64,000 bases of DNA from Bacteroides salyersiae WAL 10018 = DSM 18765 = JCM 12988. GTDB lineage: Bacteria > Bacteroidota > Bacteroidia > Bacteroidales > Bacteroidaceae. Within the stretch, counting starts at the first letter, position 1. Every line of letters starts with the position of its first letter. The position numbers and the translations under genes are program-made. The notes below the pieces were generated by a model. The model was not told where the DNA came from. It ran no database searches and was given only the letters and a program-made list of their open reading frames with translations. The DNA is taken from NCBI RefSeq assembly GCF_000381365.1, contig NZ_KB905466.1, positions 1,176,693-1,240,692 of the forward strand. The letters run 5' to 3'. Below are positions 2,181-58,177 of this stretch, one piece after another.

Positions 2181-2216
2181 ATTGCAGGTTTATCTTATTC
2201 CTGTTTCAGTTTCCGA

Positions 2217-3149
2217 TTACGAATTGGCCCAACTCACATAACGCTGATTGCCAATAATTTCCTGAACCTCCCTTACTAAATCCCAATCAATGGGCTCTTC
2301 GGCAAAAGCGATATTCTTTAAAACATTATCCGGGTTGGCCGAACTGAATAAAGTGGTCGCAATACGAGGATTACTAACAGCAAACTGTATAGCCAGTTTC
2401 TCAATGGGATACCCTTTGCTTTCACAATGCGCCACCGCTTTCTGACAAGCCTTGACCAGACGTTTTGGGGCCGGATGCCAATCCGGTACTCCCCGTTTGG
2501 AAAGCAACCCCATCGAAAGAGGGGAAGCATTAATGACACCAACCTGTTTAGACTCAAAATAATCCAGGAATTCGGTCAGCCTGTCATCGTTCAGACAATG
2601 ATGGCAAAAACTGAGCACACTTTCTACCGTGCCCTCGGGCACACAATCAACCACCCACTTGAGATTCTCCAACTGTAAATCCGTAATACCGACATGACCG
2701 ACAACACCTTTTTCACGAAGCCCCACCAAAGCCGGAAGAGTAATATTGACCACCTGTCTCATATCCGCAAACTCCACATCGTGCACATTTATCAAATCGA
2801 TGTAATCGACATGAAGACGTTCCATACTTTCGTATACGCTCTCTATCGCACGTTTCGCCGAATAATCCCACAAATTCACTCCATCCTTCCCGTAACGTCC
2901 CACTTTAGTAGACAAGTAATATTTATCACGCGGAATATCTTTCAGCGCCTTTCCTAATACAATTTCCGCCTTATAATGTCCGTAATAGGGCGATACGTCA
3001 ATAAAGTTCATCCCATTATCGACCGCCGTGTGTACAGCTTTTATCCCCTCTGCTTCACGGACATTGTGAAATACCCCGCCCAGGGATGAGGCTCCGAAGC
3101 TGAGGTTTGATACCTTCATTCCGGTTTTTCCGATTTCATATTGTTTCAT
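2217..3149 (-). CDS. Aldo/keto reductase, probable L-galactose dehydrogenase
   Basis: This cytoplasmic AKR (about 310 residues) strikingly resembles the plant L-galactose dehydrogenase group in its N-terminal half: IGKTGMKVSNLSFGASSLGG, then a DVSPYYG segment and INVHDVEF. Counting from the GTG codon at 3152, the catalytic tetrad is D52, Y57, K83 and H124. I take the ATG at 3149 as the start because it is the stronger codon. The reaction would be NAD(P)-dependent oxidation of L-galactose at C1 to the lactone, the first step of a route finished by the two genes downstream. L-Galactose is the terminal sugar of RG-II chain A, and a GH95 enzyme that could release it is encoded at 16.5-19.0 kb. 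L-Fucose is an alternative substrate. Confidence 0.75.
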   Translation of the reverse strand: MKQYEIGKTGMKVSNLSFGASSLGGVFHNVREAEGIKAVHTAVDNGMNFIDVSPYYGHYKAEIVLGKALKDIPRDKYYLSTKVGRYGKDGVNLWDYSAKRAIESVYESMERLHVDYIDLINVHDVEFADMRQVVNITLPALVGLREKGVVGHVGITDLQLENLKWVVDCVPEGTVESVLSFCHHCLNDDRLTEFLDYFESKQVGVINASPLSMGLLSKRGVPDWHPAPKRLVKACQKAVAHCESKGYPIEKLAIQFAVSNPRIATTLFSSANPDNVLKNIAFAEEPIDWDLVREVQEIIGNQRYVSWANS

Positions 3150-3175
3150 CACTATTCAGTTTGTAAAATTTGGTT

Positions 3176-5359
3176 TCAACGGTAACTTACCCGTACTTCA
3201 TCCTTCGTATCGATCCGAAGACGGTACTGATTACCGCCCAACTTCTCGACTTTTCCGATATTCGATTTAGGAGTCTTTCGCGATGTAAAGTATAAATATC
3301 CCTTCCCTTCTCCGGCTTTCACTTTGATGTGACTGGTATCCATATAGACCGAGATATCACCGTTCGGAGTAGGTACACTTCCTTCCATCCATTTCAGACC
3401 TCCCAAGTTGGGAGCGATACGAAACTCACGGTATCCTGCTTCCTCGGGAGTAACTCCTAAGTAATACTTTCCCAACAGATAAATGGGACTGGCTCCCCAT
3501 GCATGACAAAGACTTTTTCCGTAAGGACGTCCATACATGGCAAGATGCTGTGTACCGGTCTCCTCCGGATTGTACTTCTCCCAAAAAGAGGTGGCTCCCT
3601 CGCGTAACATTCCACCCCAATAATCCTTGATCTCCTGCATTACAAGTTCCTGTTCGCCCAAAGCGCACAAGGCTTCCAACTCATAAAACCGCATGTAAGG
3701 GGTAGTTATCTTCAATATAGAGTCATTGAGCAATACATTCTGTTTAATGTCTTCCTGCTTCCCGGCATCCGAATACCCGAAAATAACAGAAAACATATTG
3801 GAATACCGGGTTACGGATTTGCTTTGAATGCCATCGATACGATTGTGTACCATTGCTTTCCGAGTGTCATCCCAAAAGAACGGTTCCAGTTTTGCACGGA
3901 GGGAAGTTGCCATGCCGGAATATCTGTCCCGGTCGTCCTGCTGATCGAGTAAACGTGCGCAAAGTGCCATCGTTTCCAGACTTTTGCATAAAAGTATCTG
4001 TTCAAACGAAAGTTCCCCCTTCTTATCCAAATACCCGTCTGCCCAGTCTACAAAAACCCAGTCGCCAGCCAATCCTTCCACCATACCATTCTCATTGGTA
4101 CGTCCCAACACATACTCCATCATCGTCTGCATACGCGGATAGATTTGAGCCACAAAAGCTTTGTCTCCGGTATACATATAATAATGATAAATACTCAGAA
4201 ACCAATAAAAAGTATAATCCATGATGGTATTGGAATGGCTGGTCACCGGATCTTTTCCGCGCAGTAACCAAATAGTACGTTTCACTGCATCGCTGTCGAA
4301 AAACAGGTAATAATTCATCAAATAGCTCTGAATCGCATCCCCGCTCCATACCCAGCGATCACGCTTAATGCCGTCGATAAAGAATTCACGGGTAGTGAGA
4401 TGCATTGTGTACGCACCTACCTCCCAGATACGGTTGACTTCTTCATCGTTGCAACGGAAAGCCCCGCGATATTCAACGGGAAGATATTCGTATTCCATTC
4501 CCACATTATCGAATTGTACGTCCGGTTCTTTCTCTATATATACATAGCGGAACGCTTTGGAATTACCCAAACAGAAATCTCCTGCGGCGGAAATTTCGTT
4601 AGTAGCCAAATCAATTACTTTGCCTGCCCGGAGTTGGATTCTGTCAAGCGTTTCGCAATACGCCGTATCCAACGCCTCCTCTTTACTTTCACCATAATAA
4701 AGGCTTAAACTCCCATTTCCGGAAAGATTCTTAAATGTTATATAGCCAAAGGTTTCTTTCCCGAAATCGAGCAGTTCCCCTTTTGAACTCTTTTCACGGG
4801 AAACGGCCTGCAACGGTTCCCGACACAGCATAAACTGAGAAGGACGCTGATCGGCCCGGTCAAAGTTCCAGTATCCGGCATTCATGTAAACAGTGGCCGA
4901 AGTATCACTGGCTTTTCCACTCTCGTCAATCCACTCTTTATCCTCATAAGTAACTTTCCAGGAAGAATCGGAATGGATAGTCTTTCCTTCGACATAAATG
5001 GCGGGAGGAGTTGCCTGATTCCAGACTTTGATATTCAAATTGTGTTTTCCGGCCGGAAGTGTCAAAGTGGACGGCATACCGAACTGTAGTTTGCCATCCA
5101 GTTTCACATTGTATTTTCCTTCAGCCGTAATGAATATGTTTTCAGCACGTTCCAAATCCACCTGCTTGCTAAACTCGATCACCACATAATGACTGTCTGT
5201 CTTCCAGAAAGGCGGGAAAAAAGCTCCTCTCTCCGTCCGGCGGTTGTTCATCCGGTTACCCAGCCATATTTCATAATCGCCGGGGTACCATATCCAAGTC
5301 TGTGCCTGCAATACAGCAACATAGAACGCAATCCCCACAAAACTTATTATCTTTTTCAT
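3176..5359 (-). CDS. GH78-type alpha-L-rhamnosidase (BT1001-like)
   Basis: A 727-residue secreted enzyme with an N-terminal signal (MKKIISFVGIAFYVAVLQAQ). A beta-sandwich region of about 300 residues is followed by the (alpha/alpha)6 rhamnosidase domain. The family hallmark is the acidic stretch DGIKRDRWVWSGD near residue 335, and the C-terminal beta-sandwich begins at about residue 635. The start codon overlaps the stop of the upstream GH141 gene by 4 bp (ATGA), which indicates translational coupling. The order GH127-GH141-GH78 matches what I recall as BT1003-BT1002-BT1001 in B. thetaiotaomicron. There the GH78 acts on rhamnose in an RG-II side chain, so the same role is inferred here. The likely location is the periplasm. 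Confidence 0.8.
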   Translation of the reverse strand: MKKIISFVGIAFYVAVLQAQTWIWYPGDYEIWLGNRMNNRRTERGAFFPPFWKTDSHYVVIEFSKQVDLERAENIFITAEGKYNVKLDGKLQFGMPSTLTLPAGKHNLNIKVWNQATPPAIYVEGKTIHSDSSWKVTYEDKEWIDESGKASDTSATVYMNAGYWNFDRADQRPSQFMLCREPLQAVSREKSSKGELLDFGKETFGYITFKNLSGNGSLSLYYGESKEEALDTAYCETLDRIQLRAGKVIDLATNEISAAGDFCLGNSKAFRYVYIEKEPDVQFDNVGMEYEYLPVEYRGAFRCNDEEVNRIWEVGAYTMHLTTREFFIDGIKRDRWVWSGDAIQSYLMNYYLFFDSDAVKRTIWLLRGKDPVTSHSNTIMDYTFYWFLSIYHYYMYTGDKAFVAQIYPRMQTMMEYVLGRTNENGMVEGLAGDWVFVDWADGYLDKKGELSFEQILLCKSLETMALCARLLDQQDDRDRYSGMATSLRAKLEPFFWDDTRKAMVHNRIDGIQSKSVTRYSNMFSVIFGYSDAGKQEDIKQNVLLNDSILKITTPYMRFYELEALCALGEQELVMQEIKDYWGGMLREGATSFWEKYNPEETGTQHLAMYGRPYGKSLCHAWGASPIYLLGKYYLGVTPEEAGYREFRIAPNLGGLKWMEGSVPTPNGDISVYMDTSHIKVKAGEGKGYLYFTSRKTPKSNIGKVEKLGGNQYRLRIDTKDEVRVSYR

Positions 5360-7233
5360 CGGTCGGCTTTTTTTATTAAGTATTTATATTTTTCAGTCAG
5401 GCCGGCATTTCTCCGGATGCTGTCAGACACCATCGGACCGTTATTCTCCCACACATTACCGGGACCGTTGGCGTTCTGCAGAAACTTTTCGCTCTCTGTC
5501 CAGTTGTCTTTTACTGTAATAAAAGAAGAACCTTCGTCTGTATACAGATAAAACCAATGATTCGGATCGTGTGCATAACCGGGTGAATAAATACTGTGAA
5601 CACAGTTTTCCGTCAGGTAACTTTTGGGCTGTGCCCCCAACGTATAGATACCGGCAACATCATACATGTGTTTGGCATAATGATGAATCAAGTTGGCATG
5701 TACCCGATTGTTACGCATACAATTCACAGTTTGCGTCCATCCCCATCCCAGACTGATGCCCGAATAAGAAACTTCACAAATTTCATTGTGCTCGATATTA
5801 ATATCGGCCACATAGCCGGCACAGATAGCCAGACATCCCCAATCTTCGTTAGTGACATCGGTAAAATAGTTGTTCATGACCTGCAAATGGGTACAAAGTT
5901 CACGACGGTCGGCAGGATCATAAGGATAGTGCGTCTCATGTCCGGCGGGAGAGAAGCTACCGGCTACTAATCCGTTTCCTGCAATATCGCGAAAAAGACA
6001 TCCTTCTACTTTTCCGCCGTACGTTCCCATCTTATAATCCAAAGCTGTTGAGCCGAGATGTTCAAAAGAGCAATCCAAGAAATCGATGAAGTGCCCTGCA
6101 TGGATCTGTACTGCGGCAGCAGGACGTCCCAACCACCCTTGATTATCCAATTTATGGTTCCGGTAATCGCGGATCATCTGAGGCCGGAGTTTATAAGCAT
6201 CCGTCAGATACATGCCGGCCTGCAAAGGGACGTGTCCCTTAAGGGAAGGACGCATCCAGGTGGTATATCCGAAAGTAAGATTATCAAAGCGGATATTCTC
6301 CACCGGCCGGTCGAGTGTACCTTCTACCCGGACCAGAGTCTCCAATGCAGGAACAATTACTTCCGCCCGGCTCATATCTTCACCGGAACGTGGATAATAA
6401 TATACCTTACGGGAATAAATATCATGAAACCATTCTCCCTGTTCGTCTAAAAGTTCTTTTGCATTGGTCAGATAAAATGCCGAGTTGTGTCCGTCCGTAG
6501 TGACCATAGGACGCGGCCACGGGTGAGCAAACTGGATACGGCTCTCCGGTTGGTGAAAACGAACCGCAGCCGAATCTCCGTGTACTTCAATCGACTTTAT
6601 ACGCAGATAGGCTACACACCACATCTCATGCAATACCATCTCCGGACGGGGAGCCTTCAGTATCTTTTTCACCGCAGCCGTAGGAACCCAAAGAATTTCA
6701 TTGACAGGATCATTACTTAAGATACGATACATCTTTTCAAAATCAGAAACATCACGTGCCCGGATTGCTTTCTTACCGTTTACCCAAAGCTGCCGAAAAT
6801 CCAAAGGATACCCATTAAACTCAGGAACATCGGCTACCCATAGTTTACCTTGCTTTTTCCAACGGGTGATAGACATGCCACCATGTAACACGGAAGCCTC
6901 CTCTCCCATTCCTCGAATAATAGTAGGCGAATCGGCCGTACCGCTGTCTTCCGGACGAAGAAAAATCGGCTCTGACAAAGGATATGCTCCATTTTCCAGA
7001 CAGATATGGATACCATCGGCTATAGCCGGATCGGACAAGCGGCGCCATTCACGCGCCTGTTTCAGTGCTTGAGTCAGGGTCAATACCGGAGCTTGCCGAG
7101 TTCCCGTATTAAGATCGTTTCCATGAGGAGACACCCATATCTCTCCGGCAAATGCGGAGGATAAGGAAGAAAAAAGCCCCAAAAGAATTCCAATGCAAAT
7201 AGACAATTGATATTTCATATTTTTAGAGTTCAT
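5356..7233 (-). CDS. GH141 parallel beta-helix glycosidase, copy 1 (BT1002-like)
   Basis: About 625 residues with signal peptide MKYQLSICIGILLGLFSSLS, followed by GEIWVSPHGNDLNTGT, the usual opening of this right-handed beta-helix family. Helix rungs with repeated asparagines (ENIRFDNLTF, HNEICEVSYS, MRNNRVHANL) run through the C-terminal half. GH141 includes the RG-II alpha-L-fucosidase BT1002. A paralogue sits at 26.5-28.4 kb. The start is uncertain: ATG codons at 7233 and 7218 both precede the signal peptide, and upstream in-frame codons fall inside the tandem-repeat region and are unlikely. The following GH78 overlaps by 4 bp. A role in removing L-fucose from chain A is inferred from family and gene order. 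Confidence 0.75.
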   Translation of the reverse strand: MNSKNMKYQLSICIGILLGLFSSLSSAFAGEIWVSPHGNDLNTGTRQAPVLTLTQALKQAREWRRLSDPAIADGIHICLENGAYPLSEPIFLRPEDSGTADSPTIIRGMGEEASVLHGGMSITRWKKQGKLWVADVPEFNGYPLDFRQLWVNGKKAIRARDVSDFEKMYRILSNDPVNEILWVPTAAVKKILKAPRPEMVLHEMWCVAYLRIKSIEVHGDSAAVRFHQPESRIQFAHPWPRPMVTTDGHNSAFYLTNAKELLDEQGEWFHDIYSRKVYYYPRSGEDMSRAEVIVPALETLVRVEGTLDRPVENIRFDNLTFGYTTWMRPSLKGHVPLQAGMYLTDAYKLRPQMIRDYRNHKLDNQGWLGRPAAAVQIHAGHFIDFLDCSFEHLGSTALDYKMGTYGGKVEGCLFRDIAGNGLVAGSFSPAGHETHYPYDPADRRELCTHLQVMNNYFTDVTNEDWGCLAICAGYVADINIEHNEICEVSYSGISLGWGWTQTVNCMRNNRVHANLIHHYAKHMYDVAGIYTLGAQPKSYLTENCVHSIYSPGYAHDPNHWFYLYTDEGSSFITVKDNWTESEKFLQNANGPGNVWENNGPMVSDSIRRNAGLTEKYKYLIKKADR

Positions 7234-7342
7234 TGTTATAAAAAGAAGACGAAAAAAGACCGATTTTGTAATCACTTTTACGAAACGATTCGATAAGTTA
7301 GCCAATGAACCAAACCCGATACAATGCATACAGCAGGTAAAC

Positions 7343-7475
7343 ACCGTGTTTACGACAAGTATGAACCGTGCTTACGACAAGTATGCACCGTCCCTACAGC
7401 AAGTATGCACCGTCCTTGCAACAGGTATGCACCGTGCTTACGGCAACGCTATGCCGTACTTGCAATAGTTTTGCA
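7343..7475. repeat. Tandem 22-bp repeats upstream of GH141, possible regulator-binding array
   Basis: Five to six imperfect copies of a 22-bp unit (about ACCGTGCTTACGACAAGTAT plus GC) begin at 7343, 7365, 7387, 7409 and 7431; a last copy near 7454 is shifted by 2 bp. The array lies in the 326-bp gap between GH127 and GH141, about 110 bp upstream of the GH141 start. The core TTACGACAAGTAT resembles repeats upstream of PL1 (31.58 kb) and GH43 (42.48 kb). The 22-bp phase, two helical turns, suits direct-repeat binding by an AraC-type regulator, but this is inference. Confidence 0.6.
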
Positions 7476-19136: not shown

Positions 19137-20150
19137 ATGGGAAAGATAAACATGCATTCCTGGATACAGGAAAAGATCGATACCCCTCAACGATGTGCCA
19201 TTCCCATCATGACACACCCGGGTATCGAGTACATTCATAAAACTGTACGCGATGCCGTCACTAACGGACAAATACACTATGAAGCCATACAGGCACTGTG
19301 CGACCGATACCCGTCTGCCGCAGTCACGGTAATCATGGATCTCACGGTAGAAGCAGAGGCTTTCGGTGCGGAAATTGTTTTTCCGGAAGACGAAGTTCCC
19401 AGTGTAAGCGGACGTCTGCTTCGTGATGAAGCAGCCATTGAATCATTGGAAGTCCCCGCTCTAAACAAAGGACGGATTCCCCAATATTTGAAAGCCAATA
19501 TGCTGGCGGCGGGACACATTACCGACCGGCCTGTATTTGCCGGTTGCATAGGTCCCTATTCATTAGCAGGACGACTTTACGACATGTCCGAAATCATGAT
19601 GCTCATTTATATCAATCCCCAAGCCGCCATCACATTATTGCGCAAATGTACAGACTTCATACTCCGCTATTGCATGGCTCTGAAAGCTACCGGAGCCAAT
19701 GGTGTCATCATGGCCGAACCGGCTGCCGGATTATTGTCCAATGAGGATTGTATGCAATACTCGTCCATATTCATTAAAGAGATAGTCGACAAAGTGCAGG
19801 ATGAATATTTCTCTGTGATACTACACAATTGCGGAAATACCGGAAACTGTACGGCAGCCATGGTTTATACCGGATCGGCAGGCTACCATTTCGGGAATAA
19901 AATCGACATGGCAGATGCATTGAAAGAAGTTCCTTCCCGGACATTAGCCATGGGAAATCTTGATCCGGTAAGTTTATTCAAGGCCGCTACGCCTGAAAAG
20001 ATGAAAGCGGAAACCTTGCACTTGTTGAAAGAAACCGAAAAGTACCCTAATTTCGTCCTTTCTTCCGGTTGCGATATTCCTCCTTGTACACCATCTGAAA
20101 ACATCGATGCCTTTTATGAGGCACTAAAAGAGTTCAATCAAAACAGATAA
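19137..20150 (+). CDS. MtaA-like zinc corrinoid:acceptor methyltransferase (UroD superfamily)
   Basis: A 337-residue cytoplasmic protein of the uroporphyrinogen-decarboxylase superfamily, closest in character to MtaA/MtbA methyltransferases that move a methyl from a corrinoid protein to a thiol. The zinc ligand pattern of that branch is intact: H230 and C232 in LHNCGNTGN and C312 in SSGCDIPP. True heme-pathway decarboxylases lack this pattern. I chose the ATG at 19137; an ATG at 19152 is possible. It is one of only two complete plus-strand genes and is 8 bp upstream of a MetH-activation-like gene. Bacteroides are not known to use coenzyme M, so the acceptor must be something else (homocysteine, another thiol or tetrahydrofolate). 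The partner is inferred to be the corrinoid fusion encoded at 22.5-24.3 kb. Confidence 0.75.
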   Translation: MGKINMHSWIQEKIDTPQRCAIPIMTHPGIEYIHKTVRDAVTNGQIHYEAIQALCDRYPSAAVTVIMDLTVEAEAFGAEIVFPEDEVPSVSGRLLRDEAAIESLEVPALNKGRIPQYLKANMLAAGHITDRPVFAGCIGPYSLAGRLYDMSEIMMLIYINPQAAITLLRKCTDFILRYCMALKATGANGVIMAEPAAGLLSNEDCMQYSSIFIKEIVDKVQDEYFSVILHNCGNTGNCTAAMVYTGSAGYHFGNKIDMADALKEVPSRTLAMGNLDPVSLFKAATPEKMKAETLHLLKETEKYPNFVLSSGCDIPPCTPSENIDAFYEALKEFNQNR

Positions 20151-20158
20151 CCCAGAAA

Positions 20159-20845
20159 ATGATTGAACAACAACTCACTCTTTCCAATTTGCCTGTCTCA
20201 TCATCCGAAATCTACGAGATGATGGGATATGGCAATCAAACGGTTCCTGAGCCGGAAATAGAAGCAGAGACACAAAAGTTACTAAAACAAATTTCCGCCA
20301 TTGCCCGTCCGTCTTTTCTTTTTTTTAGTATAAACGGACAATTAGACACAATGAAAGAGACATTAACCGTGGAGCATATCACCTTTCATTTAGGAAAGAT
20401 CATAACCCGGCAATTAAGAAAATCGGAAAGTTTTGTTTTTTTTGTTGCCACAGCAGGCTACGATTTCGAGCGGTTTCAACAAACATTACGGCAGGAGAAC
20501 GATCCCTTAAAAAACTATATTGCCGATACAATAGGTAGCGTCATTGCCGAAAAGACAGCAGACTGTATGGAGCTTGCATTAGAAAAGTACATTGCCTCCC
20601 AAGAGTGGAAACATACCAACCGGTTCAGTCCCGGCTATTGCGGATGGCACGTTTCCGAGCAGCATCTTCTTTTCTCCTTATTTCCATCCCCTCATCCTTG
20701 TGGTATCCACCTCTCGGATTCCAGCCTGATGATTCCTATCAAATCGGTAAGCGGAATCATCGGAACCGGTTCCGCCGTACATAAAGTTGACTATACCTGC
20801 GGTCTGTGTACTTACGATGCATGCTATCGCCGGAAAAAGAAATAA
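20159..20845 (+). CDS. MetH-activation-domain-like corrinoid reactivation protein
   Basis: A 228-residue cytoplasmic protein resembling a free-standing cobalamin-dependent methionine synthase activation domain. The key SAM-binding hallmark is RFSPGYCGW (residues 155-163). The later segment IHLSDSSLMIPIKSVSGIIG matches the region of MetH that ends PGASVSG. The C-terminus adds a C-x2-C-x4-C cluster (C214, C217, C222) that could bind metal or an iron-sulfur cluster. In MetH this domain reactivates oxidized cob(II)alamin by reductive methylation with SAM. The same service to the corrinoid fusion nearby is the natural inference. It follows the MtaA-like gene by 8 bp and ends 9 bp from the convergent symporter gene. 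Confidence 0.7.
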   Translation: MIEQQLTLSNLPVSSSEIYEMMGYGNQTVPEPEIEAETQKLLKQISAIARPSFLFFSINGQLDTMKETLTVEHITFHLGKIITRQLRKSESFVFFVATAGYDFERFQQTLRQENDPLKNYIADTIGSVIAEKTADCMELALEKYIASQEWKHTNRFSPGYCGWHVSEQHLLFSLFPSPHPCGIHLSDSSLMIPIKSVSGIIGTGSAVHKVDYTCGLCTYDACYRRKKK

Positions 20846-20854
20846 CTAAACAGG

Positions 20855-22432
20855 CTATGAATGTCCATTGAAAAAAAGATAAAGCCCCAACATGACAACA
20901 GCAAGCAATACCCATGCCACAACCACCCCTTTCGATGTTTTCTCCATCACCTGTTTTATATCAAACACCTGTTTTGAAGAACGTTTATCAAACAGACTGA
21001 TTAATACCATACCCATACTGATAATTACAAACAGATAGAATGATAACATCATGAAATGAGGCCAAAACGAATATTGTCCGACAGGAAATACCCATAAATA
21101 AAGGACACCGACTCCGATGCTGAAAACTGTTCCCAAGGTCAAAGCCAGATTCGCCGCCAACGTAGTAGTACGTTTCCAAAATACACCAAGCAAAAATACT
21201 GCTGCCATCGGAGGAGCGATAAATCCTAATACAGACTGGAATATATTGAATAAATTCAATCCCTTGATGCTATCGATGGCAACTGTAATAACCACAGACA
21301 ACAAAGCACCAACCAACGTCACAACATGCCCTGTACGGATAATCTCCTTCTGACTGGCCTCCGGGTTGAAGTTTTTCACATATATATCCATTGTGAACAC
21401 CGTGCTCAATGCATTCAGAGCCGACCCGATAGTGCTTACCAGCGCCGCCGTCAACACCGCCAGAACCAAACCCACCATACCGGTCGGAAACAAATTCGTC
21501 ACCATAGTCATATATGCCTCATCCGGATTGGCTAACTCCGGATAAAGTGCCAGACACAAAATACCGGGCAAAATATACAAAGGAACATCCAATATCTTCA
21601 ACCATCCTGTAAAATTAGCTCCTTTCTGACCCTCTTTCAGATTCTTTGCAGCCAGAACCGGTTGTACCATCGACTGATCCGTACACCAGAACCAGACCCC
21701 CATAATGGGATACCCCAATATAATGGGAAGCCAAGGGAAAGCCGGATCATCCTTCGACAAAAACAGATTCCAGTAATTTGCCGGTACGGCATCCACCAGC
21801 GCGTCAATCCCCCCGACCTTGTATATTCCTGCAACTGTAAGTGTTGCCGACACAAAGATCAACAACAGCATTTGATATACATTGGTATAAGCCACCGCCT
21901 TTAATCCGCCCGCCATCGTGAAAAATGCAGATATAACCAATAGAATCAATGCTGATTGCCACATCGGTATATCAAAGACCTGCCGGATCAAAACTCCGCC
22001 GGCAAACAAAGTCAACGCCAGCCAAGAAATCAAAATAGTAACAATGGTGTACCAAGCCAGAATATTACGGGTAGACTGCCCGAAGCGGTATCCCATAAAC
22101 TCCGGCAAAGTGGATACATGCATTCCTAAATATCGTGGAGCAAAAACAAAAGCCAATAAAGCAATAAATACAAAAGCATACCAAGCATAATTGCCTGATA
22201 CAATGCCGGTAGTGAAACCGGCACTGGCCGAGGCAATCAGCATGGAAGGCCCCACATTGGTTCCCCACATGGAAAAACCGATGTGATGCCATTTCAATGA
22301 GTTCTCTGCAAGAAAAAGACTGCTCCCTTTCTTCCTTTTCAGGCTGGCCCATATTCCAATCGCTACTAATATAAAAAAATAAGTGATCAGGATACCCCAA
22401 TCCAGCGTATCTAAAAATTTAACATGCATCAT
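20855..22432 (-). CDS. Sodium:solute symporter (SSS/SGLT family)
   Basis: A 525-residue inner-membrane transporter with about 13-14 hydrophobic segments. Family features include an early WGTNVGPSMLIASASAGF segment, the sugar-symporter-like WCTDQSMVQPVLAAKN stretch near residue 240, and a loop with GSALNALSTVFTMDIY. SGLT-like members carry monosaccharides, sugar acids or other small solutes with sodium. It is the last gene of the GH141-GH31-methyltransferase operon, 38 bp after the corrinoid fusion. It therefore probably imports the methylated sugar, or a disaccharide containing it, that those enzymes process. The substrate is inferred from context only. The SusC/D system brings oligosaccharides across the outer membrane, so this would act at the second membrane. 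Confidence 0.8.
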   Translation of the reverse strand: MMHVKFLDTLDWGILITYFFILVAIGIWASLKRKKGSSLFLAENSLKWHHIGFSMWGTNVGPSMLIASASAGFTTGIVSGNYAWYAFVFIALLAFVFAPRYLGMHVSTLPEFMGYRFGQSTRNILAWYTIVTILISWLALTLFAGGVLIRQVFDIPMWQSALILLVISAFFTMAGGLKAVAYTNVYQMLLLIFVSATLTVAGIYKVGGIDALVDAVPANYWNLFLSKDDPAFPWLPIILGYPIMGVWFWCTDQSMVQPVLAAKNLKEGQKGANFTGWLKILDVPLYILPGILCLALYPELANPDEAYMTMVTNLFPTGMVGLVLAVLTAALVSTIGSALNALSTVFTMDIYVKNFNPEASQKEIIRTGHVVTLVGALLSVVITVAIDSIKGLNLFNIFQSVLGFIAPPMAAVFLLGVFWKRTTTLAANLALTLGTVFSIGVGVLYLWVFPVGQYSFWPHFMMLSFYLFVIISMGMVLISLFDKRSSKQVFDIKQVMEKTSKGVVVAWVLLAVVMLGLYLFFNGHS

Positions 22433-22470
22433 TCCGGTCGGTATTAAATAAAAAGTTCTACATCATTTAT

Positions 22471-24282
22471 CTATTGACGATGAAGGCTCATCAATTCCTT
22501 TGCCACGGAAACAGCCGTGTTGGCATTGTCACTATATCCGTCGGCCCCTATTTCGTCGGCAAATCCCTGGCTGACAGGTGCCCCGCCAATCATCACTTTA
22601 ACCTGCCTGCGAATACCGGCAGCCTCCAACGCATGTATCACCTCTTTCATATACGTCATGGTAGTGGTCAGCAACGCACTCATACACAAAATATCCGCAT
22701 GATTATCTTTCACAGCCTCAACAAACTTATCACACGATACATCTATACCGATATTAATCACTTCAAATCCACAGCCTTCCAACATAGAAGCTACCAAATT
22801 CTTGCCGATGTCATGCAAATCTCCTTTCACCGTACCGATCACAACTTTACCAATTGTAGTAGAAGCCGTTCCTTGCAACAATGGTTTCAATAATTCCAAA
22901 GCACCTTTCATCGCACGACCGGCCATCAACAATTGGGGAACAAAAGCCTTACCGTCCTGAAAACGCTGTCCTACTTCTCCCATCGCCTTTATCATATATT
23001 TATTTATGATTTCCTGGGGAGCAACCCCATCGGCAATAGCCTGTTTCGTCACTTCCACGGCAGATTCCAGCCTTCCGCCTACAATAGCGTCGAACAACGG
23101 TTGCAGAGCCTCGTCAGATTTCTCCGAAACCCGGTCGATCTTTATTTTCTCAAGCTCGGTGTCATTGACGGAGTTTTGCTTCTCTCCGGTTTCGCCAACA
23201 GCTTCCGAATTTACTTTCGACGTATACTCTTCCACTATCTTCATGGCTTGTTCCACCTCTTTTTCATTATGAAAATCCATCTCGATATGCACCCCGTCAC
23301 CACCGATGGCATCGAGTAAGGGTTTCAACTCGTCAAGTGTAACCCAACAAGCCATCACACTCTTACCGGCAGCCAATATTTTTCTATACAGATCGTACCA
23401 CTTCGGCGAGCCTCCCTGCGGTTCGCCTACCCCCGGCGTCCATTGAATAGCATTCAGTTCGTCTATCTCAAGCAAAGCAGGCAGATGGTGCATCGCTCCT
23501 ACTCCATCCAAATGATACAACGTATACTCGATTTTTCGACATTGCTCCCGGATAAATGGTTGCACGAAACGACGATAATCATCTTCACTGATCATAGTCG
23601 AAATATCGCTTTGCAGTTTAGTCATCTTACCCGGTGCCCACGATGAGAAATAACAGAAAGCCATTTCATCTCCTTCACGGATAATATCGTATAATTCATC
23701 GAATACCTTAAAATAGATATCATTGATTTGCTGCATCTGATATTCCAATACCTCCGGCTGCATGACGGTATCCAGCAAAACTTTGTCTGTACCTTTTAAA
23801 GCGGCCAACACATCGAGCCCTTCCATCAAATCGGGCATACCTACATAGTAATGTCCGGCAGCTTTCTTTTTACAAGCCTTCAAAAGCTCTTTATGCAATA
23901 TCCAGTTGGGATGCTCCGAATTAAAAACAATATCCTCTTTGAAGTCCGGATCGGGATGTATCCAAATCGTATCCTCTCCCCCTTCGAACACACCTCCCAA
24001 AATAGCGGCTAACGAACCAGGTCCCAACTGCGTATTGGCTACGGGAAGTATATCCGCCATCAAACTGCTGTGAGCCACATACCAATCCAGATATCCGGCT
24101 CTCCATTCCGGATCAAACCATTTTTGATTCAGATCCACGGGGGGGAGAGGAGTTGCCACCCCGGCATGCGGTTCCACTCCTTCCTGAAAGTGTTCCCACA
24201 TATTTAATACGATTCCTTTATGATTCCACCAATCCAAATAATGCTGTTTGGTCTCTTCTAAATTGCTTTTCCAAGTTTTCAT
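22471..24282 (-). CDS. CmuA-like fusion of a UroD-type methyltransferase and a corrinoid-binding domain
   Basis: A 603-residue cytoplasmic protein from the ATG at 24282; longer in-frame starts would overlap the GH31 gene. Residues 1-353 are a UroD-superfamily barrel. Residues 391-475 are the helical cap of a B12-binding protein, and 477-603 are the Rossmann B12 domain with the base-off motif D488-L-H490-D-I-G493, where H490 should ligate cobalt. The methyltransferase-corrinoid order and the length resemble CmuA, the chloromethane demethylase. Unlike MtaA and CmuA, the HxC zinc motif is replaced by HLD (H257, D259), so substrate activation may differ. It sits between a cytoplasmic GH31 and a symporter in one operon. 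Substrate-to-corrinoid methyl transfer, perhaps from 2-O-methyl sugars, is inferred; methanol from pectin methyl esters is an alternative. Confidence 0.75.
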   Translation of the reverse strand: MKTWKSNLEETKQHYLDWWNHKGIVLNMWEHFQEGVEPHAGVATPLPPVDLNQKWFDPEWRAGYLDWYVAHSSLMADILPVANTQLGPGSLAAILGGVFEGGEDTIWIHPDPDFKEDIVFNSEHPNWILHKELLKACKKKAAGHYYVGMPDLMEGLDVLAALKGTDKVLLDTVMQPEVLEYQMQQINDIYFKVFDELYDIIREGDEMAFCYFSSWAPGKMTKLQSDISTMISEDDYRRFVQPFIREQCRKIEYTLYHLDGVGAMHHLPALLEIDELNAIQWTPGVGEPQGGSPKWYDLYRKILAAGKSVMACWVTLDELKPLLDAIGGDGVHIEMDFHNEKEVEQAMKIVEEYTSKVNSEAVGETGEKQNSVNDTELEKIKIDRVSEKSDEALQPLFDAIVGGRLESAVEVTKQAIADGVAPQEIINKYMIKAMGEVGQRFQDGKAFVPQLLMAGRAMKGALELLKPLLQGTASTTIGKVVIGTVKGDLHDIGKNLVASMLEGCGFEVINIGIDVSCDKFVEAVKDNHADILCMSALLTTTMTYMKEVIHALEAAGIRRQVKVMIGGAPVSQGFADEIGADGYSDNANTAVSVAKELMSLHRQ

Positions 24283-24307: not shown

Positions 24308-26557
24308 TTAACGATCTGCCCAAAATCCCCTATAGGCATCGTCTATTTTTACCAATATGCTTTTACTCAAATCCATCTCATCCGTACAATCCACCTCTTC
24401 AGGATACATCGGAATAGTCGCGCCTCTACGTACATATACAGGCATTTCTTCAAGAGGAACGTCTACCTTCTTCAGCCAACACTCCCCTTCAAAACATTCA
24501 CCTGTAAAGAAGTTTACCCATTCTCCTTTAGGAAGATAAACATCCCGGTATCCCTCACTATTCATAACCGGAGCTACCAGAAAATCATCACCAAAGTAAT
24601 ACTCATCATCTATATGCCAACAAAGCTTATCCTCCGGATGATGGAAAATCAATGCACGCAATACCGGATAACCGGTACGGGTTGCCTTTTCACTTTGTTC
24701 CATAATATAAGGAATCAATGCATATCGCAGTTTCCACCATTTCTTTACAATCGAAGCAATCGCCGGATAACTCCAAGGTTCCCGTTTGCTGGTCCCATGA
24801 TAACGAATGTGCGATGAGAAAACTCCGAACTGCGTCCACCGCACATATATATCATCAGAAACGGGAGAATTCATAAAATCGGGCAAGCTGTGAAAGCCCG
24901 GCACATCGTGACTCCAAAAAGCAAACCCCGAAAGTCCGAAATGCAACCCTCCTTTTAGAGAACCTGCCATTCCGTCCCATGTACTGGCCGAATCTCCACC
25001 CCAATGAAGCGGATAGCGTTGGCAACCGGCCCAGGCAGCCCTCGCCCACACAATACCGTCACCAGTCACTTCCTTGGTAATTTCATAAGCTGCCTTTTGA
25101 TAAAGTAATGCATATAAATTATTCAGCAATTCGGGTGTCATGCCGTAATAGGCCGCATCCATATGAATATTCTCTCCAAAATCGGTTTTAATGCATACCA
25201 CTCCCATATCGAGCAGTTTTTTCAACAATCCTTTATACCATCCGACTGCCTTCGGATACGTAAAATCAATAGTACCGGCATAATCGAGCGCTGAAAAGTT
25301 CGACCCCTCCGTATCCTGTTTCTTCGTCAACGGACCGATAAAACGATTGGCTTTCGCTTCCTCTATCTGTTCGGCATCATCTGCCACATAAGGCAATTGC
25401 CAAAGAGACACCCGGTATCCTCTTTCTTTCAATCGCCGGATAAAGTTCTCCGGTTGCGGAAAACGTTCTTCATTAAATTTCCATTCACATAACCAGTCGG
25501 TTTTAAACCACCCCGTATCCAGATGAATAACATCACAAGGATAATGTTCGGCACGCATACGGTCACAAATAGTATTTACTTCGTCCGCACTAAAATAAGT
25601 CATACGACTCATCCATACTCCATAACTCCAAAGCGGCAACATTGGCGGAAAACCGGTCAAGCAACGATACCCGTAAAGAATTTCCTCCGGCATATCTCCA
25701 CCGATCAGAAACACATCCAATTGCGCCTGATCATTCAGAAATTGTACCGAGCGTGTAGAGTGATCGGCTAATGAAAGTTTACAATGTGAACTGGTATGAT
25801 AAAATACTCCATACATCCGGCTCGACAGATAGAAAGGTATATTTTTATAAGCACGGCGGTTATTTACACCTTGTCCGTCCTGATTCTTCAACTGAAACGT
25901 ATGCCCGCTCAAATCCATCTTATAAAAACGTTCGCCTGTACCGGCAAATGCTTCATCGGGCAAACATTCGAATGAAACGGTAGCCCGTTCCTTACGCCCG
26001 TTCTTTGTGCAATATGCCAAAGGAAGAGCATCATGTCTCGGAGGAGAAAAATGATCATAGGCACTGAGCCGGACCGACTTCTTGGTATCCGGGTAAAAAG
26101 TAATATCCAACGTTTCCTGCGGGGGCGGAAGCAGATTGCTCCAATGCTCAAGTACAGGTTCGCGCAAATTGATAAGGGCACGCAACTGACCATCTTCATC
26201 ACATACACTCCACAAACCGTGATCCTCACTCACTGTCAGCGGTACCTTACGAACGTCGGAAGCCATTTTCAACATTTCTGTCTCCTCCTCCCAATCGGCC
26301 TCTCCCAACCCAGTATATAAACGAAGGATATGGGGCGAATAATAACGGATTTTCAGCGTATATTCTTTCCGTGAAACATTCACGTCCGCAGCCATATCGT
26401 TTGAAAGCATTTGTTTCTGAAAAGGAACAGTCAAATATATATCCCCCCCCTTTTCATAGATAGAAGTAGGTTTACAAGCTTTCCAAAGGGATTCGTCGGT
26501 CTTCAGTTCGGTATCGAAATCCAGAAAATCGAACAAATGATAATTAGTTTGTTTCAT
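24308..26557 (-). CDS. GH31 alpha-glycosidase, probable cytoplasmic alpha-xylosidase-type enzyme
   Basis: A 749-residue GH31 enzyme close in layout to the YicI alpha-xylosidase group. The nucleophile is D459 in IKTDFGE and the acid/base is D522 in HWGGDSAST. A substrate-site DVIHLDTGW lies near residue 345, and LSGFAFWSHDVPGF follows the acid/base. No signal peptide is present (it begins MKQTNYHLFDF), so unlike its CAZyme neighbours it should be cytoplasmic. Its start overlaps the end of the GH141 gene by 14 bp, and it precedes the corrinoid methyltransferase by 25 bp. RG-II chain A bears 2-O-methyl-alpha-D-xylose on L-fucose, which suggests this enzyme cleaves that bond after import. Other alpha-glycosides are possible. 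Confidence 0.8.
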   Translation of the reverse strand: MKQTNYHLFDFLDFDTELKTDESLWKACKPTSIYEKGGDIYLTVPFQKQMLSNDMAADVNVSRKEYTLKIRYYSPHILRLYTGLGEADWEEETEMLKMASDVRKVPLTVSEDHGLWSVCDEDGQLRALINLREPVLEHWSNLLPPPQETLDITFYPDTKKSVRLSAYDHFSPPRHDALPLAYCTKNGRKERATVSFECLPDEAFAGTGERFYKMDLSGHTFQLKNQDGQGVNNRRAYKNIPFYLSSRMYGVFYHTSSHCKLSLADHSTRSVQFLNDQAQLDVFLIGGDMPEEILYGYRCLTGFPPMLPLWSYGVWMSRMTYFSADEVNTICDRMRAEHYPCDVIHLDTGWFKTDWLCEWKFNEERFPQPENFIRRLKERGYRVSLWQLPYVADDAEQIEEAKANRFIGPLTKKQDTEGSNFSALDYAGTIDFTYPKAVGWYKGLLKKLLDMGVVCIKTDFGENIHMDAAYYGMTPELLNNLYALLYQKAAYEITKEVTGDGIVWARAAWAGCQRYPLHWGGDSASTWDGMAGSLKGGLHFGLSGFAFWSHDVPGFHSLPDFMNSPVSDDIYVRWTQFGVFSSHIRYHGTSKREPWSYPAIASIVKKWWKLRYALIPYIMEQSEKATRTGYPVLRALIFHHPEDKLCWHIDDEYYFGDDFLVAPVMNSEGYRDVYLPKGEWVNFFTGECFEGECWLKKVDVPLEEMPVYVRRGATIPMYPEEVDCTDEMDLSKSILVKIDDAYRGFWADR

Positions 26558-28427
26558 GGATACTATCTTTTAAATAATTATATTCGGGTTGCAGTCCGGC
26601 TGCCGATTTTATTGAATCCGATACAGTCGGGCCGTTGTTTATCCACACATTAGCAGGACCGGGACGGTTGGCATCAAACAAGGGTTCCGGACACCAGTTA
26701 TCTTTCACCCGGTATCCATCGGTAGCTTCATCAAAATAAATATAAAAAGCCCGGTCGTTGGTAGCATAAGGGGCATTTCCCAACTGTTCGATCCGATTGG
26801 CGGTCATCTCCGAAGACGGCTGATTGGATAAAGTATACAAACCGCCGGCATCATACAATTGCAAGGCAAAATGATGTACATAATTCGCATGAATCCGGTT
26901 ATTTTTCATTCCGCTATCCAACGGTGTCCACCCCCAACCGACACAGATACCGGAATAGTTCACATAACTCACTTCATTATGTTCGATCGTCATATTACGC
27001 ACGTATCCCGCACCGATACCCACACATCCCCAATCTTCATTGGTCACTTCCGTAATCAGATTATTGGCGATACGAATGTCAGAGCAATATTCTCTTTCAT
27101 CTTCCGGCATATAAGGGACATGCGTCTCAAAACCGCCGGCAGGGAACGCTCCCAATGCCAAAGCAGTTCCTCCGATATCGGTGAACAAACATCCTTCTAC
27201 ACGACAATTATTTACCGCCCATTCATAATCCAGCCCTGTGGCTCCCAAATGTTTAAAAGTACATCCTGAAAAGTTAATTTGCCGGGCTCCTCTAATTTGC
27301 AAAGCTGCTCCCGGACGTTCGATCCAGGCTTGGTTTTCCAATTCCGCCTTTTCCGGTAGTCCGGGAACAGCAAGCTTATAGGCATCCTTCAGATACATCC
27401 CCCCCTGTAAAGTAACATGCCCATACAAAGAAGGACGGTTCCAGGATGCATATTCAAAACTAACCCCTTTAAATGAAATATAAGAAACGGTTCTTTCTAA
27501 AGAACCATCCACTTCCAACAGTGTTTCCAATACAGGTGCTACTACTTCTGCCGTTGAAAGATCCACATTTTCTTTCGGCCAATAATAGATTTTTCCGGAA
27601 AGATACTCCTGATACCACTCCCCCGGCCGGTCCAGCAAACGAATCGCATTACCCAACGTAAAGGAAGAATTTCCCTTCTCACCTCCGATAACCGGCTGTG
27701 GCCAAGGATGCTGAAACTCAAGGCGGCTTTCTGGCTGATGAAACGTGACACGGGTACGTTCCCCCTGCACCTCCCAATCTTTCACGCGCAAGATAGCAAT
27801 CGCCCAGCGCTGATGCACCGTCATTTCCAACCGGGATTCATTTTCCAACCCTTTTATAGCCGGAGTAGGCACCCATATCTCTCTTTTTTCCGTATCGAAA
27901 TCAAGTATCCGTTTCATCTCACCCGGCGCAAGCCAAGTCGTACGAATAGCTTTCTCTCCGTTTACCCATAATTGGCGGAACTCCAATATCCGGTTACCTA
28001 TCTCGGGAGCATCCGCCACCCACACTTTTCCGCGTGCAACTTCCGGAAGCCCGGCAGGAAAATCTGTAACCGGTTTCCATCCGGTTACGCGGATTCCCCC
28101 ACTAAGCACCGCCTTTCCCGGTTCCACAGCCTCTATGACTGTAGGCGAGTCCTCCGTTCCACTATCCTCCGGACGTAGAAACAGTATCTCGTCCTGCGGG
28201 TATATACCTCGTTCCAATCGAATATTAATTCCTCCTTCGACCGCCGGATCGGATAAGCGACGCCATTCCCTTGCCTGCTTCAGTGCTTGTGCTACTGTAC
28301 GTAAAGGCATCTCCCGAGTCCCCGCATGCTTGTCATTTCCTGTTACGGAAACCCATATTTCACCTGCAAAAGCGAAATTTACAGTACACAATAAAGCTAT
28401 AATAGAAATAGACAAACGATATTCCAT
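26544..28427 (-). CDS. GH141 parallel beta-helix glycosidase, copy 2
   Basis: About 627 residues, paralogous to the GH141 at 5.4-7.2 kb along its whole length. It has the same signal-plus-GEIWVSVTGND opening, the shared AQALKQAREWRRLSDPA segment, beta-helix rungs (IEHNEVSYVNYSGICVGWGW) and the end VWINNGPTVSDSI. The ATG at 28427 is preferred over an in-frame TTG two codons upstream. It has a signal peptide and is likely periplasmic. The gene overlaps GH31 by 14 bp, so the pair is translationally coupled. That link suggests a specific division of labour: this enzyme would release a fucose-containing fragment outside the cytoplasm and GH31 would finish it inside. GH141 is known for RG-II alpha-L-fucosidase activity, but substrate differences between the two copies cannot be judged here. 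Confidence 0.75.
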   Translation of the reverse strand: MEYRLSISIIALLCTVNFAFAGEIWVSVTGNDKHAGTREMPLRTVAQALKQAREWRRLSDPAVEGGINIRLERGIYPQDEILFLRPEDSGTEDSPTVIEAVEPGKAVLSGGIRVTGWKPVTDFPAGLPEVARGKVWVADAPEIGNRILEFRQLWVNGEKAIRTTWLAPGEMKRILDFDTEKREIWVPTPAIKGLENESRLEMTVHQRWAIAILRVKDWEVQGERTRVTFHQPESRLEFQHPWPQPVIGGEKGNSSFTLGNAIRLLDRPGEWYQEYLSGKIYYWPKENVDLSTAEVVAPVLETLLEVDGSLERTVSYISFKGVSFEYASWNRPSLYGHVTLQGGMYLKDAYKLAVPGLPEKAELENQAWIERPGAALQIRGARQINFSGCTFKHLGATGLDYEWAVNNCRVEGCLFTDIGGTALALGAFPAGGFETHVPYMPEDEREYCSDIRIANNLITEVTNEDWGCVGIGAGYVRNMTIEHNEVSYVNYSGICVGWGWTPLDSGMKNNRIHANYVHHFALQLYDAGGLYTLSNQPSSEMTANRIEQLGNAPYATNDRAFYIYFDEATDGYRVKDNWCPEPLFDANRPGPANVWINNGPTVSDSIKSAAGLQPEYNYLKDSIHETN

Positions 28428-28462
28428 ATGCAATCGAATCTTTGAATAATTCAGACAATCTG

Positions 28463-31237: not shown

Positions 31238-31351
31238 AATAACCATTTATTGTAGTATATACACTTATAAACGAACAAAGCAATTCAGTGTACTCATTAT
31301 TATTAGAAATAATTTGCCAATATGCTAATTGACTGTGCGTATACCGCATGG

Positions 31352-37969: not shown

Positions 37970-40900
37970 TTATTCTAACACATCTTTACATACTATTCTT
38001 TCGAGCGTATCAGACTGTCCGACTATCTTTCCATCCACCAACACCAGCAACCCTTTACCGCGATGATACCGGTCACCATACTTGTCCCAAAGAATCGTCA
38101 GATAATGACCGTGATAGAGAAGATTATCCAAACAGAACCAATCCCACCGGCCATCGGGAAGCAACGGATTCACTTCAACCGTATGATCCGCACGGGGACG
38201 CAAACCTACCAGACCGGTAATTATCAAATCATTGAAAGTGGAATGATTGTAATAACGGCTCCGTTCCTGATCGCCTTTCAACCAATATCCGGTCACTTCA
38301 TCCAAATACTCGCCGATGTAGGGACGCCCCCGGTGATATTGCGATTCTACATACCGTTCCATCTGATGAAAATAGATACTGTCGGTCAGGACAGACTGTG
38401 CAGAACGATTCATAAAATTGGCCATCGCCGTTAAAGTTTGTGCTGAAGCAAACGGCCAGATAGCCCCGTCCCACTCACATTTTCCCACTCCATGCGTACG
38501 GAACTCCGGATGGCGGCGCTCGGCGGTAGTAAGACCGTAAGGAGCAGAAAAGCCGCCTTCATCCATTACCTCTTTCCACGCCACATCGTATTTGCCGGTA
38601 TCGGGCAGATTAAAATACCAGGGAATATACCCGATAGCCTCACGGACATTGGCAAAAGAATCCTTACGCAAGGTTTCGAAAAACGAGTGACGCTCATTCC
38701 AAAGTTTCTCCTGTACCAACTGCTTCAAGGTGTCGGCTTTAAGACGATAGCAAGTTGCACGGTCGTCATTACCGGCCAGCTTATTTAAAGCTGAAAGTGC
38801 TTTAGCATTGCCATACATATAGCTATTGATGGTGGGACGCGCATATTGTTTCCTACGCCCTCCACTGATGGATTCTTCCATTCCATCCTGCACATCACCC
38901 TGCCAGTAAAGGCCTCCGGGCAGACGGTGAGTACTCTCCCAACGCCAGTATTCCGCTTCCAGATCGGGTAACAGATCCATCGTAAACGCACGGTCGCCAC
39001 TGACAAGATAGCGATTGAACACTGCATCTGCATTCCAGGAACTGAAGTTCATCATCTTCTTCATGGGATTCCCCCCGTTGCCACGATACCAGGTACGGAT
39101 GATCTGGTCGAGATATTCCGGACGGCGCAACCAGCGACTTTCATAAATATGATGTCCCACGGCACAAGCTATCAGGTTATATTGGTCGGCATAAGAGCGG
39201 TTGACCAGAAATTCCGTCATACCATATCCCACCGGAGTATCCTTAATATGTTTTCTTAAATTCCACCAACGGAAATAATACATCTCTTCAAAATTCTTTT
39301 GGGGGCATTCGAACAAAGGAATGTTCTCTTCCATCCACTCCGAAGCTTTGGCATTCGGTATGGCCTGCACGATATTCTCGTCTTCCATTGCATTGAAAGC
39401 ATCGGCATAATGACGGAAACCGGCGTACTTCAAAACCGCCGCAGTGGCATCGGCATCAGTCGAAGCTGTGGAAAAATTGGCAATCCGGAATTCGGACAAT
39501 GCTTCCTGTTTTCCAGCGCCGGGCAAGTCATATTCCTGATCGGCAGGCGTTTCGGGAGTGGGAAACATACGGACATTTCCCGTACGAAACAAGATACGTT
39601 CGACAGAAGCTACCGGAGCATAGAACATACGTTGCCCCACCGGCCGGCCGTCTACCGATATCCGGATATTCCGGTCCTTGACAGAGAGTTCAGCCTGTAT
39701 ATGATAAGTCTTTCCGGGCTCATACTTCATCATATTAGAGAAACGTGAACCGCCTTTTGCCCGTAAGATTCCTTCCGAAGTGAGTTCGATACGCGAACAG
39801 GCAATACCATCGGCATCCAGAAATTCGATCTGCAATGTACCACGATCGTTCTGGCCTGCCATGAGATCAAAAGAGACAGTCAGTTGCCGGGAAGCCGGAA
39901 TCTTGCGTTCCACTTTGGCGTAATCGAACGGATCTTTATCCCGCAGGGTCAACCAAGTATTTCCCGCTTCAGTCTCTAAAGAGACAGGTGCCCACAGGGG
40001 TGAATAGATGTTCCATTCCGTCAGATCGGCCAACCGGGCGTAGCGTGAAAAATCTTCTTTAGCATGGCTGCCTGCTTCTGTACGTACCGGAACGGGAATA
40101 CGGGAAATCCATATATCTTCTTTATTCATGCTATACGTCACCCACAGGTTTCCGTCCTCCGGTTTTCCATTGCCTTCTTGAATGCCGCGTGCATATTGAG
40201 GACCATACGATTTATAATTGCCTCCATAACGCATGGGAGGAATTTCTCCGTTTACCAGATTCAAAGTGGTATACTCGAGCCCGTCCTTGCTCAAGGAGAT
40301 GGCCAGTGGCCAACGAAATTCGGAAGGATTGTATACAGTGGCATACATGCCGTCGCTCAATCGCTGTCCCCAGATTTTGGCATTACTGTTCACAAAACCC
40401 TCGGCACGTAACACGGGTTCGGCCCAACTGTGGCCTCCGTCTTCACTGACGGATGTCAAAGCATGCTTCCACAGACAAGCCAGACGGCCGTCGGGCAGTG
40501 TATAGGCATTGAAAGCCTTATAGCGTTTTTTCAACGGAAGATTCGGATCTTCCCTGTCGGCTTCTTCCACCCACTGCATCCAATAGAGAGGGTTATCCAA
40601 TATCTCCCGGCAAGCGGCTACAAATGCCTTATCCTTACTCTTCCGGAAGGGAGGATAAGCAGTGTTCTTTTCATTAAAACCATGATTGTAATAAATGAAG
40701 TATATCGGCCCGTAACTGCCGTCTTTTTTTATTTCACGCACGACGCGTCCTATGCCGTTTCCATCGTTCGGATCATCTTTTTTGTCGAAAGCAACTCCAT
40801 AATTGGCCATCGCTATCAAGCGCCCCGACTTAGAGACATAAAAACCTACCCGTTGGTGCATAATGGCAAAAAGGTCTTTGGCAACCATGCCCGGACGGGA

Positions 40901-58163: not shown

Positions 58164-58177
58164 AGTTCTTCTCTTAA

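Follow-up and report, generated by a model that had tools for sequence, protein, structure and literature searches.

The question raised by this locus is why a complete-looking set of corrinoid (vitamin B12) methyl-transfer proteins should be encoded among genes for the degradation of the pectin rhamnogalacturonan II (RG-II), and which methyl group they would act upon. The window, the 64,000-nucleotide stretch of the Bacteroides salyersiae WAL 10018 genome analysed here, had been described in an initial annotation as holding a module of four genes, encoding an MtaA-like zinc methyltransferase, a MetH-activation-like protein, a fusion of a UroD-type methyltransferase with a corrinoid protein and a symporter. 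An open reading frame (ORF) check and Pfam and NCBIfam scans of the window proteins confirmed the position and identity of all four. The unit is larger than this and comprises six genes: a secreted glycoside hydrolase (GH) of family GH141, a cytoplasmic GH31, the UroD-fold/corrinoid fusion and the symporter, convergent with the MtaA-like and MetH-activation-like genes (Table 1). This conserved, RG-II-linked methyl-transfer cassette is real, and its substrate is probably a methyl sugar, as had been supposed. The interpretation that we favour, at slightly better than an even chance, is that the cassette salvages the RG-II disaccharide 2-O-methyl-xylose-alpha1,3-fucose (2-O-Me-Xyl-alpha1,3-Fuc): the fusion would remove the 2-O-methyl group, GH31 would split the bond between the sugars and the methyl group would pass to homocysteine to give methionine.

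The arrangement of the genes in the window is compact. The MtaA-like and MetH-activation-like genes, separated by 8 bp on the plus strand, converge on a minus-strand series ordered pectate-lyase-like protein, GH141, GH31, fusion and symporter, with gaps of 29, −14, 25 and 38 bp. A search for a B12 riboswitch gave no Rfam family above its gathering score in the window or in seven related loci. The cassette is also found in other Bacteroides and in Phocaeicola, in many cases away from the RG-II locus; P. vulgatus ATCC 8482, P. sartorii and B. xylanisolvens XB1A are among the named carriers. All six genes were present, with differing flanks, in eight of 12 loci that were drawn (L003, L004, L006, L008, L011, L012, L017 and L155); among these, L006 and L155 seem to be one contig, the fusion is interrupted in L017, and GH31 and the symporter are each in two pieces in L004. 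The activation and MtaA-like genes were not found within reach in L010, L014 and L021, nor was GH141 in L154. In the genus sample of 149 genomes the N-domain of the fusion (among the matches listed) and GH31 (E <= 1e-250) occurred in an identical set of 21, lying less than 500 bp apart in every one. The two halves of the fusion are separate neighbouring proteins in four of these carriers (G045, G085, G112 and G131); G047 has a corrinoid protein of a more distant type, positioned after the symporter. In a phylum sample the N-domain was detected at E 1e-8 in one of 296 genomes, the source genome itself, and distant relatives were not found.

Some individual loci depart from this pattern. The interrupted fusion of B. 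xylanisolvens XB1A (L017:10001-11807) is in two pieces in different frames and may be a pseudogene or reflect a sequencing error; G111 has a similar split. The activation and MtaA-like genes of G045 (L154:16437-17913) lie ∼4.5 kb past the symporter; since four ORFs part them from it, the cassette can evidently be divided into its two halves. One record titled as a Paenibacillus metagenome-assembled genome (L062) carries a fusion 78% identical to that of the window and is probably mislabelled or a mixed bin.

The association with RG-II was assessed across genomes using a BT_1020-like protein as the RG-II marker, with GH10 included to control for genome size and for plant-fibre use in general. 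The marker was present in 20 of the 21 carriers and 22 of the 128 non-carriers of the genus sample (Fisher 2.9e-12, with no correction for shared ancestry), and the sole carrier from which it was missing, G143, is a genome only 74% complete. GH10 was present in 17 carriers (16 above the family cut-off) compared with 60 non-carriers (P = 0.003 and 0.011); a general plant-fibre effect therefore exists, and it is far weaker than the link to the RG-II marker. Among the 399 genomes of the family sample, the marker was present in all 18 carriers and in 16 of the 381 remaining genomes (P = 3.2e-22, again uncorrected for ancestry). The cassette lies 0.4 to 1.1 Mb from the marker on the same contig in four genomes (G021, G086, G111 and G128). 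The co-occurrence in both samples therefore places the cassette in the context of RG-II, even in genomes where the two lie apart. The initial annotation had held that homologues found consistently at unrelated, non-glycan loci would tell against its reading, and the outcome is mixed but favourable: the cassette is frequently away from the RG-II genes, and yet GH31 accompanies it without exception in the genus sample and the marker is found in 34 of 35 carriers when the samples are pooled, four carriers being common to both.

The donor side of the system would be formed by the fusion protein. The N-domain had no Pfam match even at E 10 and the MtaA/CmuA model TIGR01463 did not match the fusion; in predicted fold the N-domain comes nearest to MtaA/UroD, the best Foldseek match being 4ay8 (MtaA) at 9.1e-10. 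Residues H257, D259 and D336 were invariant in all 23 rows of one alignment (A3), while in a 40-row alignment (A1) H257 and D259 were invariant and D336 was present in 90% or more. D336 was placed as the third ligand by hand from the strand order, and the metal site of the N-domain is probably His-Asp-Asp, compared with the His-Cys-Cys of MtaA. According to the zinc-ligand rule set out in a preprint, His-Cys-Cys denotes S-methyltransferases and a carboxylate denotes O-methyltransferases (PMC10418091). The probable His-Asp-Asp pattern is of the type reported for O-methyltransferases, and the N-domain is predicted to be a sugar O-demethylase, of a sequence family that Pfam does not recognise. 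The remainder of the protein was identified by Pfam, a structure-sequence match and alignment as B12-binding_2 and B12-binding domains with the DxHxxG motif. A mobile origin for the fusion was considered and rejected, as 135 plasmid records matched and none covered 80% of it; five listed records matched the corrinoid half only.

On the acceptor side, the MtaA-like protein scored 189.2 bits against the URO-D Pfam model (cut-off 23.9) and fell under the curated cut-offs for MtaA (112.4 of 400 bits) and MtaA/CmuA (124.6 of 235.4 bits). The motifs H-N-C-G and S-S-G-C were present in all 47 orthologues from the loci, and the His-Cys-Cys residues aligned with those of 4ay7, the nearest solved structure. 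Of 80 related loci, 61, mainly from Prevotella and relatives, encode a fusion with a homocysteine S-methyltransferase domain between the N-domain and the corrinoid domain. PF02574 matched at 1e-80 or better in five of six scanned orthologues, L062 being without it; no folate domain was detected in any of the six, and the zinc motifs GGCCGT and GxNC were found in all 59 proteins longer than 850 aa. The plain reading of these sequences is that the three-domain Prevotella form would be a methionine synthase taking its methyl group from the UroD-fold domain. Since 61 of the 80 loci carry this MetH-type domain within the fusion, homocysteine is the likely acceptor and methionine the likely product, which replaces the general one-carbon pool that had initially been suggested. 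The fusion of the window itself lacks the homocysteine domain, and we infer that in this organism the separate His-Cys-Cys MtaA-like enzyme performs the same task. The MetH-activation-like protein matched PF02965 at 46.3–49.4 bits (cut-off 25) and the strong match of the genome, at C1:322155, scored 324.7 bits; the cassette protein is, to judge from its sequence, a second and divergent MetH-type copy, the MetH of the genome being located elsewhere, outside the cassette. The genome also has a stand-alone homocysteine S-methyltransferase domain at C3:13935.

The hydrolases of the cassette bear on the identity of the substrate. By eye, GH31 has no signal peptide and the GH141 orthologues have signal-peptide-like N-termini. 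The cassette GH141 keeps both catalytic Asp residues, on the basis of a 5mqp alignment and a hand count with an offset of 5 between the print and chain numbering; the published pair is D523 and D564 (PMC10154630). BT_1002, a GH141 of Bacteroides thetaiotaomicron, releases 2-O-Me-Xyl-alpha1,3-Fuc from chain A of RG-II (PMC10154630). This bacterium is reported to cut 21 of the 22 linkages of RG-II, leaving 2-O-Me-Xyl-alpha1,3-Fuc, which accumulates in culture (PMC7939467), and elsewhere to cleave all linkages but one (PMC12282258). This disaccharide is proposed as the substrate because the cassette combines a secreted GH141, a cytoplasmic GH31, a symporter and a candidate O-demethylase. Of the methyl sources named initially, a methyl sugar remains probable, and GH31 and GH141 point to the chain A disaccharide more than to methyl esters, methanol or 2-O-methyl-fucose. 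Methanol or methyl esters as donor were rejected, as no methanol-methyltransferase family was detected in the six proteins and the companionship of GH31 and GH141 would be unexplained. A transketolase and rpiB adjoin the cassette in L155, where they were scanned, and similar ORFs are found in L003 and L006; these were not counted as support for xylose metabolism, since an arabinofuranosidase adjoins them.

The proposed route would begin with release of the disaccharide by secreted GH141 enzymes, as published for BT_1002, and its import by the symporter. The N-domain would then activate the ether oxygen and transfer the methyl group to the Co(I) of the attached corrinoid domain, as its fold, ligands and fusion suggest, and GH31 would hydrolyse the sugar bond before or after demethylation. 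Homocysteine would take up the methyl group through the fused MetH-type domain in Prevotella, in which domain and zinc motifs are present, and through the separate MtaA-like enzyme in the organism of the window. The MetH-activation-like protein would, by homology, re-methylate oxidised corrinoid with S-adenosylmethionine.

Several observations weigh against this route. Sequence profile searches of the N-domain against the PDB gave chance matches only, and hhalign found no match between it and an MtaA-family alignment. GH31 was within reach in 55 of the 80 related loci, many contigs ending early, and around half of the genomes with the RG-II marker have no cassette (22 of 42 in the genus sample, 16 of 34 in the family sample); carriers may, as the GH10 comparison implies (P = 0.003), also be richer in other plant-fibre genes. 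GH31 fell under the NCBIfam alpha-xylosidase equivalog cut-off (482.7 of 606 bits), while the GH31 domain itself was detected by Pfam, and 5f7c, the structure that it matches, carries the name alpha-glucosidase. We take 5f7c to be BT_0339; among 158 genus genomes none was identical to the 5f7c sequence and two matched it at 99% (G143 and G059).

B. thetaiotaomicron presents a further difficulty, as it appears from published gene listings to own the cassette as BT_0338-BT_0343. BT_0338 is given as a GH141 (PMC8264420), BT_0339 as an alpha-xylosidase (PMC10434189), and BT_0340, BT_0342 and BT_0343 as corrinoid 'Mta (methylamine/trimethylamine methyltransferase)' proteins (PMC8941943); BT_0341 would then be the symporter. 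The apparent cassette, identified by annotation and not by sequence, has locus numbers far from those of the RG-II genes BT_0984-BT_1021. Such proteins were thus already listed in Bacteroides, where the initial annotation knew of no such system described in a pectin utilisation locus. Given that the disaccharide accumulates in a bacterium that apparently has the cassette, the explanation may lie in a shortage of B12, a lack of induction or poor uptake in those cultures, or else the proposed substrate is wrong; the main text of the accumulation study does not mention B12. BT_0338, BT_1002 and BT_0984 all rose more than 2.8-fold in a co-culture (PMC8264420), and the rise of BT_0338 alongside two RG-II genes is a hint of co-expression. 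No link of BT_0340, BT_0342 or BT_0343 to RG-II was seen in the literature searched.

Part of the proposal could fail while the machinery is as described. One possible donor is free 2-O-methyl-L-fucose, which GH139 would release from chain B, the GH31 and GH141 genes being neighbours for some other reason. This sugar is also named in a B. thetaiotaomicron spent-medium figure (PMC7939467) and the co-occurrence with RG-II is compatible with either methyl sugar, but the fusion is accompanied by a GH31 of the alpha-xylosidase/alpha-glucosidase type, in all genus carriers, and by a GH141, and we regard this donor as unlikely. Equally, sugar demethylation may be correct and the methyl group destined for tetrahydrofolate or another thiol, as a general one-carbon supply. 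Known bacterial systems often use tetrahydrofolate (PMC10418091), the window fusion has no homocysteine domain and its MtaA-like partner may use some other thiol, and an MtaA-like gene persists near 37 of the 61 loci in which that domain is part of the fusion, where it may have another role; this last count also tells against methionine formation as drawn above. The His-Cys-Cys site favours a thiol, Prevotella fuses a homocysteine domain, the cassette has a MetH-type reactivase and no pterin-binding (folate) Pfam domain was present in the six cassette proteins, so that this destination, too, seems rather improbable.

Least probable, and in our view very unlikely, is a methylamine or methyl-sulfur/selenium system lying in the locus by chance. 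The published 'Mta' annotation (PMC8941943) would agree with this, and the combination of an MtaA-like protein, a corrinoid protein and an activase resembles the type 1 mlp clusters of a preprint (PMC10418091). Those clusters have at least two MtaA-like proteins (Mlp2 and Mlp3), Ram/RACE and ties to selenium and sulfur (PMC10418091), whereas the MtaA-like protein is the sole URO-D Pfam (PF01208) match in the whole B. salyersiae genome, in which no HemE was seen, and a Pfam scan detected no Ram/RACE among the six cassette proteins. Furthermore, the donor-side domain has no His-Cys-Cys site and the cassette has tight links both to GH31 and to the genomes in which the RG-II marker occurs.

The salvage of 2-O-Me-Xyl-alpha1,3-Fuc would place the cassette in a class of system that is already known. 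CmuA, which acts on chloromethane, likewise joins a UroD-type methyltransferase and a corrinoid domain in one protein and is similar in length to the window fusion; the latter differs in its failure to match TIGR01463, in its probable carboxylate rather than Cys ligands and in its predicted sugar-ether substrate. The Prevotella form resembles MetH in its GGCCGT/GxNC homocysteine domain and B12 domains, and the cassette has a separate MetH-type activation protein; unlike MetH, there is no folate domain, the UroD-fold domain is N-terminal in its place, and the L061 protein scored 484.5 against a metH cut-off of 1010.85. MtgBCDE of Ruegeria pomeroyi, acting on glycine betaine, similarly couples demethylation to methionine synthesis by means of a donor methyltransferase, a corrinoid protein and a PF02574 homocysteine module (PMC12478193). 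It differs in having a PF06253 donor enzyme, an essential pterin-binding MtgD and separate genes (PMC12478193). In the cassette the donor domain is of the UroD fold and forms one protein with the corrinoid domain, no folate module was seen and the context is a glycan locus. The RG-II enzymes of B. thetaiotaomicron belong to the same carbohydrate-active enzyme families as those around the cassette, and the sections consulted of PMC7939467 and PMC12282258 mention no corrinoid module.

A new domain arrangement of methionine synthase is likely. The fuller statement, that gut Bacteroidales have a second kind of B12-dependent methionine synthase, in which a UroD-fold sugar-ether demethylase replaces the folate domain and RG-II methyl groups (2-O-methyl-xylose) are turned directly into methionine, and that the same cassette breaks an RG-II linkage thought to be resistant, is advanced tentatively and in our estimate falls a little short of an even chance. 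If true, this would be a methionine synthase drawing its methyl group from food instead of folate, linking dietary fibre, B12 and methionine in the gut. As far as the literature searches reached, it would also be the first case of a sugar ether demethylated through a corrinoid; no corrinoid sugar demethylase was seen in the open-licence papers searched. The cassette is in addition a candidate solution to the gap reported at 2-O-Me-Xyl-alpha1,3-Fuc in the model gut organism, and may have been missed because it is often away from the RG-II genes, is listed under methylamine metabolism in B. thetaiotaomicron and would need B12.

Table 1. Features of the cassette and of the surrounding RG-II locus, in window positions.
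Feature	Position	Strand	Evidence
MtaA-like zinc methyltransferase, predicted thiol (S-) methyl acceptor enzyme	19137..20150	+	URO-D Pfam; His-Cys-Cys H230, C232, C312
MetH-activation-like protein, predicted SAM (S-adenosylmethionine)-dependent corrinoid reactivase	20159..20845	+	PF02965
Sodium:solute symporter (SSS), predicted importer of methylated (di)saccharide	20855..22432	-	PF00474 3.9e-55; 38 bp from fusion gene
603-aa fusion, UroD/MtaA-fold methyltransferase N-domain and corrinoid domain (residues about 391 to 603)	22471..24282	-	Fold prediction, Pfam
UroD-fold N-domain of fusion (residues 1 to about 360-370), predicted sugar O-demethylase	23173..24282	-	H257, D259, D336 probable metal ligands
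Corrinoid-binding domain of fusion, DLHDIG (D488-x-H490)	22474..23112	-	PF02607, PF02310; 1y80 5.3e-59
GH31, predicted cytoplasmic alpha-xylosidase	24308..26557	-	PF01055 4e-84; 5f7c 1406 bits (residues 1-747)
Secreted GH141, paralogue of BT_1002, overlaps GH31 by 14 bp	26544..28433	-	5mqp 611.9 bits
GH141 nearest BT_1002	5356..7344	-	5mqp 1063.3 bits
BT_1020-like protein, RG-II marker in this analysis	37970..41293	-	PF24067 4e-120
SusD and presumed SusC of RG-II locus	56307..61516	-	SusD Pfam 3.2e-44; 58178-61516 SusC by position beside SusD

Modules combining a different UroD-family protein with corrinoid, activation and MtaA-like proteins were observed beside other glycoside hydrolases in L146, L149 and L153, in L147 and L152, and in L148. 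The scanned neighbours were GH3, GH130, an epimerase and a sugar transporter in L146, GH127 in L147 and a GH95-like protein in L148; L149, L152 and L153 were likened to these by ORF layout. The zinc sites of these UroD-family proteins read His-Cys...His in six of six. These modules may be demethylases for other methylated glycans, and their occurrence suggests that the principle is wider.

The surroundings of the cassette look, by family scans, like an RG-II utilisation locus, and match known ones: the window jointly holds an apiosidase, two GH141, the BT_1020-like protein, GH95, GH127, GH28, GH78-type rhamnosidases, a pectinesterase and SusD. The BT_1020-like protein is presumably GH142/GH143. 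At 190-3152 lies a trio of aldo-keto reductase, amidohydrolase and zinc alcohol dehydrogenase, which is near the cassette in eight of the 80 related loci, the amidohydrolase and zinc alcohol dehydrogenase occurring as a pair, minus the reductase, in two more; the trio possibly oxidises L-galactose or L-fucose from RG-II. Two large proteins (28463-31246 and 48938-51763) have type IX secretion tails, the former resembling the pectate lyase PelZ at 68.6 bits, below the cut-off of 840. The proteins at 45749, 47428 and 51892 had no Pfam match, a TSP3 repeat was the sole match of the protein at 43827, and DUF3826 was present twice in the window.

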